From NCBI GenBank assembly GCA_018823135.1, contig JAHJJF010000016.1, forward strand, positions 1 to 64,000: 64,000 nt of DNA, read 5' to 3'. The notes under the pieces are model-generated. The model saw only the letters and a program-made list of their open reading frames with translations, was not told where the DNA came from and did not search any database. This DNA comes from Pseudomonadota bacterium (GTDB taxonomy: Bacteria > Desulfobacterota > Desulfobulbia > Desulfobulbales > CALZHT01). The position numbers and the translations under genes were made by a program. Shown here in pieces: positions 27,387-53,839 of this stretch; within the stretch, counting starts at the first letter, position 1; each line of letters starts with the position of its first letter.

Positions 27387-28076
27387 ATGAGTTATTTTCC
27401 GATTTGTCTTGATATCCGTAATCGATATTGTATCGTCATCGGCGGCGGTAACGTTGCCCAGCGAAAAGTCCATGCGTTGATTGCTTATGGCGGCAAGGTT
27501 ACGGTCATCAGTCCGGAAATTATCAGCGAACTTGCCGAACTTCAGAAAACCGGCAAACTTGAATGGATAGATCGGGCATATCAAAAGGGTGACCTGACTG
27601 GGGCATTTCTGGTGATCGCTGCAACAGACGATCCCGATGTTCAGGCGACAATAAGCAACGAAGCCGAAGAGAAGAATATTCTTTTGAATGTTGCTGATGT
27701 GCCGAAATGGTGTAATTTTATTCTGCCCGCCACAATACGGCGTGGCGACTTGACGGTTTCTTTTTCAACAGCCGGCAAAAGCCCGGCTCTTGCGAGAAAA
27801 TTAAGGAAGGAGAATGAAGAGCGTTTCGGCGAAGAATATGAAATTCTGTTAAAGATTCTCGGAGAGGTGCGCGAGACAGTTTTAGCCCAGGGCAGGCCCC
27901 ACGAAGAAAATAAGACACTGTTTCACAATCTTCTTGACTGTGATATGCTTGAATGGATCAAAAAGCGAGATTGGGGTGCGATGAAAAGGCATCTCAAGGA
28001 TTCAGTGGGCATAGAAATAGAATTACAAAATTATAATGATGATGGCGTCGTAAAAAGTCGCTCTACTGCGTCGTAA
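27387..28076 (+). CDS. sirC: Precorrin-2 dehydrogenase (SirC/Met8-type)
   Basis: NAD-dependent oxidation of precorrin-2 to sirohydrochlorin, the branch to sirohaem and, in sulfate reducers, to haem. 229 residues. The Rossmann motif CIVIGGGNVAQRKV is at about 15-28, ATDDPDVQATI near 75, and TIRRGDLTVSFSTAGKSPALARKLRKE near 114. The stand-alone protein lacks the CysG methyltransferase domain. The last 11 codons (28041-28076, including the stop) come from an inserted MITE; the pre-insertion gene would have ended about nine residues earlier as N-P-stop. It is upstream of ccsA/hemX and hemA. Confidence 0.92.
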   Translation: MSYFPICLDIRNRYCIVIGGGNVAQRKVHALIAYGGKVTVISPEIISELAELQKTGKLEWIDRAYQKGDLTGAFLVIAATDDPDVQATISNEAEEKNILLNVADVPKWCNFILPATIRRGDLTVSFSTAGKSPALARKLRKENEERFGEEYEILLKILGEVRETVLAQGRPHEENKTLFHNLLDCDMLEWIKKRDWGAMKRHLKDSVGIEIELQNYNDDGVVKSRSTAS

Positions 28077-28238
28077 CAGCGAAGCGGTGTCTGGGTTCGC
28101 GAAATGCTCGACATGCATTTGTATGCAGTCGCTTTTGCTACACCACGATACTTCGGAGTCTCACCGGTTCGCTTACCTGTGACCAACTTTTTACTTAGCC
28201 ATTCTGAAGCGGTACGATGGACTTTTTACGACGCCATC
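28041..28238. mobile_element. MITE-like element with 19-bp perfect inverted repeats and 6-bp target duplication
   Basis: The ends GATGGCGTCGTAAAAAGTC (28041-28059) and its exact reverse complement (28220-28238) bound a 198-bp non-coding element. AATGAT occurs directly on both sides (28035-28040 and 28239-28244), a target-site duplication. Removing the element and one copy restores a sensible sirC end (AAT GAT AAT CCT TGA). The interior holds a second near-palindrome around GCATTTGTATGC and no transposase, so it must be mobilised in trans. It supplies the current sirC stop codon. Confidence 0.88.
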
Positions 28239-28288
28239 AATGATAATCCTTGATTATATGTTTGACCCTGTCTGAGGAATGTGCGGAT

Positions 28289-29104
28289 ATGAACCTTCTT
28301 TTTTCAGCAACATTTTTATGTTATATTCTGGCAACAGCCGCCTATGTGGTCTTTTTTTTCTCACAAAACAAAAAGATTCGATTGGGGGCGCGGTCCATAT
28401 TCTTTGTTGCCGGGGTACTGCATTTCATCTATCTCATTGTACGGTATGTTGCTGCAGGTCATACCCCGCTTACCAGCAATCATGAGGCGGTCTCCTTTTT
28501 TGCATTGACCATAACCTGGGCCTTCCTTTCGTTTCGCTGGCGGCACCAGGTTAAGAATTTCGGGACTTTTGTGAGCCCGGTGGTAACGCTGCTGATGCTT
28601 GTGGCGGTTCTATCGTCCAAGCACATCAAGGAGTTACCTCCAGCCCTGCAAAGCAACTGGCTTCCTGTGCACGCAAGTATCGCGCTTATGGCTTATGGCT
28701 TTCTTGCCCTGGCTTTTTGCGGCGGCATCATGTATCTGCTGCAGGAAAGAGAGATCAAGAAAAAGAGTTTCGGCCTTTTTTACAGCCGACTGCCTTCCCT
28801 GGATGCCCTGGATAGTCTCAACCACCACTGCCTTGCCATAGGTTTTCCGCTCATGACCCTGGGGATCATTACCGGATCCATCTGGGCGCGGCAGGCGTGG
28901 GGCACATACTGGCAATGGGATCCCAAGGAAACCTGGTCACTGATTACCTGGTTCATCTATGCTGCGCTTCTCCATCAACGCTTGACTGTCGGCTGGAGAG
29001 GGAAAAGGGCGGCGATCATGTCTATCATTGGTTTTTCCGCAGTGTTATTCACCCTCTGGGGTGTGTCTTTCCTGCTCTCGGGGTTGCATTCCTATGTTGG
29101 TTGA
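28289..29104 (+). CDS. ccsA: CcsA/HemX-type cytochrome c assembly membrane protein
   Basis: A 271-residue polytopic membrane protein with eight hydrophobic helices and the haem-handling WWD-like motif AWGTYWQWDPKETWSLITWF near 210. Conserved haem-ligand His residues flank it (VHASIALMAYG near 126 and HSYVG at the C-terminus). Position directly before hemA, overlapping it by 11 nt, is also typical of HemX, a CcsA-like protein that controls HemA levels. CcsA and HemX cannot be separated from sequence alone. ATG 28289 follows GAGGAA. Confidence 0.85.
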   Translation: MNLLFSATFLCYILATAAYVVFFFSQNKKIRLGARSIFFVAGVLHFIYLIVRYVAAGHTPLTSNHEAVSFFALTITWAFLSFRWRHQVKNFGTFVSPVVTLLMLVAVLSSKHIKELPPALQSNWLPVHASIALMAYGFLALAFCGGIMYLLQEREIKKKSFGLFYSRLPSLDALDSLNHHCLAIGFPLMTLGIITGSIWARQAWGTYWQWDPKETWSLITWFIYAALLHQRLTVGWRGKRAAIMSIIGFSAVLFTLWGVSFLLSGLHSYVG

Positions 29105-30377
29105 TTCAATCGTTACATTGGGGGTTAACCATAAAACAGCCCCTGTTGCAGTCCGCGAAAAACTGGCTTTTTCCGGGGAATGCGAATCACCTCTTGTCAG
29201 GCTTTCCGGGCTTGACGGTTGTGATGAGTGCTGCTTTCTTTCCACATGCAACAGGGTTGAAGTGGTAATGATCAGCCGCACCCCTCAGGAATCTATCGCT
29301 GCAGTCCGTAAAATTTTGTTTGAAAAAACGAACCTGACTAAAGAGGAAACCGAAAAGTACAGTTATGCGCACCAGGGAAAAGAGGCAATAAATCACCTGT
29401 TCAGGGTTGCATCAAGCCTTGATTCGATGATTGTCGGTGAACCGCAGATTCTCGGCCAGTTGAAGCAGGCGTACCGTGAAGCTTCCGAGAGTAAAAACAC
29501 CGGCATAATTTTAAACAAGTTGATGCATAAGGCCTTTTCGGTTGCCAAGCGTATCCGCACGGAAACAAAAATCGGCAGCAGTGCGGTGTCAATAAGTTAT
29601 GCGGCGGTTGAGCTTGCAAAAAAGATTTTCGGAAATCTCAAAGGCAAGCGGGTTCTTTTGGTAGGGGCTGGAGAAATGGCCGAGCTTGCGGCGGAACACT
29701 TGATTAATCAAGGTGTTGCTGGGGTTGTTGTTGCCAACAGGACATTTGAGAGAGCAGTAAAACTTGCCCGCAAATTTAACGGCACGGCGGTAGCTCTGGA
29801 GGAGATTGTTGGGCAGCTTGAGGATGTGGATATTTTAATAAGCTCAACCGGGGCGACAGAGCTTATTCTCAATAAAAATGATCTCAAGCCGATCATGAGG
29901 CAGAGAAAAAACCGACCGCTCTTTCTTATAGATATAGCGGTTCCAAGAGACCTTGATCCCAAACTTAACGAACTGGATAATATTTATCTCTATGACATTG
30001 ACGATCTTACAAATGTTGTTGAGATCAATAAGTCGGAGCGGGACAAGGAAGCCGCCACGGCAGAAAGAATCGTTAAAGAGGAGACTCTGAAGTTCCGGCA
30101 ATGGGTCGAAAGTCTGGAGGTTGCCCCGACAATTGTCGAGCTCCGGAAAAAAGCCGAAGAAATAAGAACTGCAGAACTTGAAAAAACATTCGCTCAATTG
30201 AAAGATCTCTCAACAAATGATAAAAAAGCTATCGAAATAATGGCCAATGCGTTGGCAAACAAACTGCTCCATGATCCAATTCTTTTTCTGAAATCAGAAG
30301 CATCCCCGGAAGACAAACAAAACAAGCTTGATCTGATTCGTGAAATGTTCGGGTTGGATAAAAACTCCTCCCGATAA
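29094..30377 (+). CDS. hemA: Glutamyl-tRNA reductase
   Basis: NADPH-dependent reduction of glutamyl-tRNA to glutamate-1-semialdehyde, the first committed step of C5 tetrapyrrole synthesis. 427 residues. The catalytic Cys is in FLSTCNRVE near 50, with GVNHKTAPVAVREKLAF at the N-terminus, the core EPQILGQLKQAYREA near 113 and NADPH-binding LLVGAGEMAELAAEHL near 188. The C-terminal dimer domain carries the usual long helices. ATG 29094 lies inside the end of ccsA, implying coupled translation. Confidence 0.96.
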   Translation: MLVDSIVTLGVNHKTAPVAVREKLAFSGECESPLVRLSGLDGCDECCFLSTCNRVEVVMISRTPQESIAAVRKILFEKTNLTKEETEKYSYAHQGKEAINHLFRVASSLDSMIVGEPQILGQLKQAYREASESKNTGIILNKLMHKAFSVAKRIRTETKIGSSAVSISYAAVELAKKIFGNLKGKRVLLVGAGEMAELAAEHLINQGVAGVVVANRTFERAVKLARKFNGTAVALEEIVGQLEDVDILISSTGATELILNKNDLKPIMRQRKNRPLFLIDIAVPRDLDPKLNELDNIYLYDIDDLTNVVEINKSERDKEAATAERIVKEETLKFRQWVESLEVAPTIVELRKKAEEIRTAELEKTFAQLKDLSTNDKKAIEIMANALANKLLHDPILFLKSEASPEDKQNKLDLIREMFGLDKNSSR

Positions 30378-30782
30378 GCATTATTTTCACGCGTTGCTGG
30401 TGAGGCATGAAGGATGTTTGCTAATTGAAAATATTTGACATGTTTATTGAGTTGTGGTTAGTATGCAATGTTCAAGAATGATGAAGTCGTAACAAGTCTC
30501 GCAATCATCACCAGGTCCTTGTTAATTCAGCAAATTACGGGCGTTATAGCTGCCGACGGAAGTTTTTTGGGAGCCTCCCCGTGTTTACTTGCCGACGAGG
30601 CCGACAATATAAGTCGGAAGCTCTGTGGTGGTTATTTATCACTTTAATATTTGTTTTCCAGAGTACTGGATTGGCTGCCGGGAAGGACGATAAGGCAATC
30701 AGATAATTAGGCGCCGAGAAGTTTTACAGAAACAAAGATACCCTGGAAATAACTCTTTAACTGAAGACATAAAGGAAGAACA
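30378..30782 (+). other. Intergenic region upstream of rpmH with folded segments
   Basis: About 400 bases without a protein gene. It contains the promoter listed separately and, downstream of it, several hairpins: CCGAC/GTCGG (30601-30617, extended by GAG/CTC), a GGGAG/CTCCC palindrome (30569-30579) and a TGCCGACG direct repeat (near 30551 and 30590). I found no DnaA box (TTATCCACA) or AT-rich repeats, so I do not call an origin. It may be a long rpmH leader or a small RNA. Confidence 0.4.
30435..30464 (+). promoter_or_regulatory. Sigma-70 type promoter upstream of rpmH
   Basis: A perfect TTGACA (30435-30440) and TAGTAT (30459-30464) are spaced 18 nt apart. Transcription would start near 30471, about 310 nt before the rpmH start codon, leaving an unusually long leader. 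Confidence 0.55.
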
Positions 30783-53729: not shown

Positions 53730-53825
53730 AGCTGCTTGGCAACCCCGCTGCCATACCCTCGATAGTCCAAGGGGTTAGGCTGGTGGCTTTGCGGCTCGCC
53801 CTTTCGGACGATGTGCCTTTTTCAA
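53730..53825 (-). promoter_or_regulatory. GEMM-I cyclic-dinucleotide riboswitch
   Basis: On the minus strand the leader reads GGCACA, a stem-loop closed by GAAA (TCGTCC GAAA GGGCGA), CGCAAAGCCACCAGCCTAA, and later GGCAGCGGGGTTGCC. These are the conserved pieces of the GEMM-I aptamer: the GNRA tetraloop, GCAAAGCC, the CCUAA tetraloop receptor and the AGCGGGGUU 3' element. The base before GGCA is A where Vc2 has G20, a change known in the cGAMP-sensing GEMM-Ib group. A CCTCC (53724-53720) downstream could mask the GAGG ribosome site. It controls the adhesin-like gene. Confidence 0.85.
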
Positions 53826-53839
53826 GTTTTTACTGGATG

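Follow-up and report, generated by a model that had tools for sequence, protein, structure and literature searches.

The window, by which we mean the whole 64,000-nucleotide stretch of DNA analysed, contains sirC, a ccsA/hemX-like gene and hemA, all in one direction. The sirC gene (27387..28076, +) encodes a 229-aa protein of the precorrin-2 dehydrogenase type with Pfam domains NAD_binding_7 (E 3.5e-33) and Sirohm_synth_M. The next gene downstream (28289..29104, +; ATG at 28289) encodes a ccsA/hemX-like cytochrome c assembly protein (PF01578, E 6.3e-51), and hemA (29094..30377, +; ATG at 29094) encodes a glutamyl-tRNA reductase (PF05201, PF01488, PF00745). Elsewhere in the window, a c-di-GMP-I riboswitch aptamer is found at 53735..53827 on the minus strand (73.7 bits).

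The 3′ end of sirC lies inside a 198-bp element (28041..28238, +). Its left terminal inverted repeat, GATGGCGTCGTAAAAAGTC (28041..28059, +), is complementary to the right one, GACTTTTTACGACGCCATC (28220..28238, −), at all 19 positions, so that complementarity of the arms is 100%, and a copy of AATGAT adjoins the element on each side (28035..28040, + and 28239..28244, +). The first-pass annotation had described such an element, with perfect 19-bp termini, AATGAT on both flanks and no transposase; the description was confirmed base by base, and no transposase ORF is present within the 198 bp. When the window was searched for the 19-mer with up to three mismatches, three matches were found, compared to 0.01 expected per window in shuffled sequences. 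Two of them are the termini themselves and the other is a weak, three-mismatch match at 30480. The pairing of the termini is thus not due to chance.

The sirC reading frame runs into the element, as had been noted, and ends there after 11 codons and a TAA (28041..28076, +; stop at 28074-28076): GAT GGC GTC GTA AAA AGT CGC TCT ACT GCG TCG TAA, or DGVVKSRSTAS followed by the stop. Joining the flanks with a single AATGAT indeed restores the proposed sirC end, AAT GAT AAT CCT TGA, and gives a 220-aa ORF ending in NYNDNP; the former stop would be the TGA at 28251..28253 (+), two codons past the junction. The insertion had also been placed upstream of ccsA/hemX and hemA, which gene order and Pfam matches bear out. 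For the effect on their expression that had been suggested as possible, scans for promoters and terminators gave no positive evidence. The duplicated target and the old sirC stop both lie upstream of the ccsA ATG, and the ccsA leader with its ribosome-binding region is intact.

Related elements and the sirC end in relatives

The genome that carries the element, a 3.6 Mb draft in 157 contigs (95% completeness), was searched and sampled for related sequences. About 15 diverged copies, 66–71% identical over most of their length, were found at unrelated places, where they adjoin unrelated genes and have target duplications of their own. The perfect 19/19 termini are peculiar to the sirC copy, other copies having imperfect ones (GATGGCGTC.. 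versus GATGRACTC..). A survey of 258 genomes from 69 genera of the same order revealed the end pattern in 109 genomes and 46 genera; a reversed-pattern control gave one match in the entire set. Over 119 stretches of public MAGs contain the exact 19-mer, and their titles are nearly all deltaproteobacterial or refer to sulfate reducers (Deltaproteobacteria, Desulfobacterales, Desulfobulbaceae). Thus, further copies of the terminus were recovered in the same genome, throughout the order and in public MAGs, the search for them having been proposed by the first reading of the locus.

In other genomes, flanking duplications could be inspected for 75 elements whose right end was paired. An exact duplication of 6–7 bp was present in 56 of them, while shuffling of the flanks produced a mean of 2.1 and a maximum of 8. 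The duplicated targets have the consensus AANNTT (A in 48/56, A in 41/56, two free positions, T in 42/56 and T in 54/56), and AATGAT at sirC fits it. With inverted termini (19/19), a target duplication (AATGAT), multiple dispersed copies, ends in common with an autonomous element (see below), short length and no transposase gene, the 198-bp sequence is a MITE of a dispersed family. These features, including ends like those of a full-size IS, are common to bacterial MITEs, for which in-frame fusion of intragenic copies with host ORFs is also known (review PMC10969869). The family of the MITE at sirC differs from those described there in its spread over one order, the divergence of its copies and the presence of a very small repeat nested inside. 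In itself, the MITE is an ordinary but clean case, in which a name can be put to the gene, the target, the duplication, the family and the parent-type transposon. A literature search found nothing on this family, and the matches to the terminus sequence that it returned were unrelated.

The targets of the family have a final T and the element begins with GA, so that insertion creates a junction TGA in one frame; a second frame meets a TAA in ATGGCGTCGTAA, at the left end of the MITE family. Host reading frames are, therefore, quickly closed. The same genome contains a second type of MITE (L048 around 1501; L054, L056, L051, L040) with a similar left end, GATGGCNTCGTAAAAAGTC, a right end ...CTTTTTACGAGACCGAC and, in L048, the duplication AAAATTT. 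A third type of repeat (L045, L049, L055) has the end GATGGGCTCGTAAAAAGTC, the interior GGTCCACCTCATAAAATCAACATG and, in L055, the duplication AATATAT.

Comparison with close relatives had been suggested as a way to see the uninterrupted sirC site. Of 29 further genomes from the family and order, none has the element at the 3′ end of its sirC, and to this extent the expectation held; the literal AATGATAATCC empty site was not seen, because SirC proteins of these relatives are at most about 60–62% identical to that studied here, a distance at which an exact nucleotide empty site cannot be shown. The uninterrupted ancestral end, ...AATTATAATGATAATCCTTGA, is therefore deduced from the target duplication. 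SirC is 216–237 aa long in the 29 genomes and its tails are unalignable and not conserved. Both the putative former protein of 220 aa and the present one of 229 aa fall within this range, which makes loss of SirC function unlikely. The MITE at sirC shows how the end of a gene can be rewritten at no obvious cost.

A transposon with matching ends and the origin of the insertion

Pairs of the same ends were sought in complete genomes. In G082, a complete genome from the same order, they recur 1887 bp apart, in more than ten copies. Each of 11 copies read begins with GATGGCGTCGTAAAAAGT, ends with GACTTTTTACGAGGTCATC and is flanked by a 6–7-bp duplication (AAGTAT, AATAAAT and ACAATT, for example); the first 18 bases of the left MITE terminus are those of this autonomous IS. 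The first-pass annotation had called for a search for an autonomous parent, and an element with the same ends does exist in a related genome; none was found in that of the MITE. The element in G082 contains a single ORF for a 584-aa DDE transposase with DUF772 and DDE_Tnp_1_6 domains. The best NCBIfam match of the protein is the IS1182 model NF033551, at 158.7 bits; as the curated cut-off of 270 is not reached, we call the transposase IS1182-like and do not file it as a member of the family. Assignment to the ISNCY/ISDol1 group was not confirmed, the ISNCY model scoring far lower (57.9 bits) than the IS1182 one. The parent-type transposase resembles the IS1182 family in its best model match and in its DDE_Tnp_1_6 and DUF772 domains. 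Unlike IS1272, an IS1182-family element that replaces an inverted repeat and makes no duplication (PMC5678879), the parent-type elements make duplications of 6–7 bp. Several related transposases, with identities between 86% and about 50%, are likewise flanked by GATG...CGTAAAAA-type ends and 6–7-bp duplications.

The common ends and the common length of duplication make it very likely, as judged from these sequences, that the MITE was mobilised by an IS1182-like type of transposase. No match to the 584-aa protein or to the IS1182 model was found in the draft genome of the MITE itself, where the mobiliser may have been lost or left unassembled, or it may reside elsewhere. Over the order survey, the association of the transposase with the ends is weak: by hand tally, the ends occur in 14 of the 25 genomes that match the transposase and in 95 of the 233 that do not. 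Among the loci fetched by the terminus, no element longer than 320 bp with matching duplications was found.

We propose, with a probability of roughly 0.93, that the MITE was inserted by DDE transposition into an AT-rich 6-bp target in sirC, most likely moved in trans by a transposase of the IS1182-like type. The element would have integrated, presumably by cut-and-paste, into AATGAT in the last codons of sirC, and the 6-bp target would have been duplicated in the process. The transposase, acting in trans, would most likely be of the IS1182-like type encoded by related genomes. The new frame adds 11 residues and a stop to the non-conserved tail of SirC, and the protein probably still works. 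In a separate event, before or after, a 24-bp very small repeat would have been placed inside the MITE.

The spread of the terminus, the autonomous element that shares its ends and the element-free sirC ends of relatives support the original interpretation of the locus as a MITE insertion. In a rival view, the 198 bp would be no insertion but a conserved RNA or regulatory element that acts in cis on the sirC-ccsA-hemA operon, for example in heme or siroheme control. Such a role would suit the position of the element inside an operon of one pathway and its folding, which is far better than that of shuffled sequence (for both strands, z is about −6.3). Inverted termini by themselves give such a fold, however; Rfam has no match at this position, and the 29 further genomes whose sirC ends without the element, together with the dispersed copies in duplicated flanks at unrelated genes of the same genome, refute regulation as its origin and leave this explanation with hardly any probability. 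Another possibility is that the insertion was kept as useful because it changed expression of sirC, ccsA or hemA or the activity of SirC. Between sirC and ccsA there are now about 200 nt of RNA that folds strongly, and a weak promoter-like match (9/12) spans the right end of the element. Yet promoter- and terminator-like matches are near chance level, the affected SirC tail is not conserved, and drift is enough to account for fixation; we regard a selected benefit as improbable.

The choice of the mover is a little less firm. A different transposase that merely recognises similar ends may have moved the MITE, as the own genome yielded no IS1182-like transposase and holds two or more further types of MITE whose ends are similar. 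Against this stands the fact that the ends, the length of duplication and the AT-rich target are common to IS1182-like elements over a wide divergence of their transposases, and we consider another mover unlikely, if slightly less so than a selected benefit. DDE transposition by the IS1182-like type into sirC thus remains the preferred reading.

A very small repeat nested in the element

Alignment of the window copy to sister MITEs of the same genome revealed a nested 24-bp repeat, GGTAAGCGAACCGGTGAGACTCCG (28154..28177, −), of which the first-pass annotation had made no mention. The block is missing from the same site in seven sister MITEs, and a similar block is present in one other (L005). 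In the same alignment, on the minus strand, about 12 bp more (the AGACACCGCTTC region) are extra in the window copy, at a place where L005 has a different, longer block.

The pattern TAAGCG-N(0-16)-AGACTYCG occurs in 26 copies in the own genome (for example, L308, L309, L310, L311 and L021) and was found in 183 of the 258 genomes and 55 of the 69 genera, with up to 437 copies per genome; the reversed pattern gave 0–5. Copies have the form G[GA]TAAGCG-(1-11)-AGACT[CT]CG with a mini-hairpin between the conserved parts, and lie mostly outside long ORFs. The middle part is mainly 1, 8, 9 or 11 bases long, giving units of mainly 17, 24, 25 and 27 bp. As a single folded unit is thermodynamically weak, the case for the hairpin rests on covariation. 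Among 68 different long forms, pairing of the two positions on either side of the tiny loop was counted in 116 of 136 cells, compared to 73 ± 4 (maximum 87) in 5000 shuffles of the 3′ halves, a control that overstates independence, the sequences being related. Taken by itself, the outer pair is seen as GC, CG, AT, GT, TG and TA.

For an empty-site test, the unit was removed from each copy, the 28-base flanks were joined and an uninterrupted counterpart was sought. Counterparts were found for 33 of 78 distinct copies, or about 29 after tandem-copy artefacts were dropped, with the unit precisely present or absent, though in a sample biased to MITEs, since MITE ends or the unit itself had served to retrieve most of the loci. 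In some pairs the flanks are 100% identical (L371 and L369 with a 27-bp unit; L361 and L309; L199 and L177 with a 17-bp unit). No target duplication is seen at the insertion sites, which lie nearly always between [C/G]A and A. Because amplification of a MITE multiplies the units already inside it, abundance alone is no proof of mobility; the occurrence of insertions in several unrelated repeat families and at several sites does point to independent events.

Whether the nested unit is one of a family of elements in this order that move independently is, in our estimate, an even question. Such elements would be 17–27 bp long (G[GA]TAAGCG - mini-hairpin - AGACT[CT]CG), would insert precisely at [C/G]A|A with no duplication, often into MITEs or other palindromic repeats, and their enzyme may recognise the hairpin. 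A RAYT-like mover is not supported, since Y1 transposases do not track the unit: there are genomes with 11–15 Y1 matches and no repeat, and a genome with 214 repeats has no Y1 match. REP/REPIN sequences, which have RAYT transposases, are, like the nested unit, very short hairpin repeats and mostly extragenic (PMC3116915); the lack of association with Y1 transposases sets the nested unit apart.

A literature search on the sequence of the unit found nothing, and to our knowledge it is not that of the small dispersed repeats of cyanobacteria. The latter, as far as papers that cite them describe them, resemble the nested unit in being about 20 bp long, dispersed and thought to be mobile (Elhai et al. 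2008, cited in PMC2884548 and PMC3116915). Compared to them as so described, the nested unit is found in another phylum, shows a covarying stem of 2 bp and falls into length classes. We think that it matters more than the MITE and deserves a study of its own: if mobile, a unit of 17–27 bp would rank with the smallest known mobile sequences, and its insertion rule can be tested directly on the filled and empty pairs. Tandem units at exact unit spacing (18, 24, 25 and 28 bp) were also observed, as at G043:C40:13359 and 13377 and at G027:C76:766 and 791.
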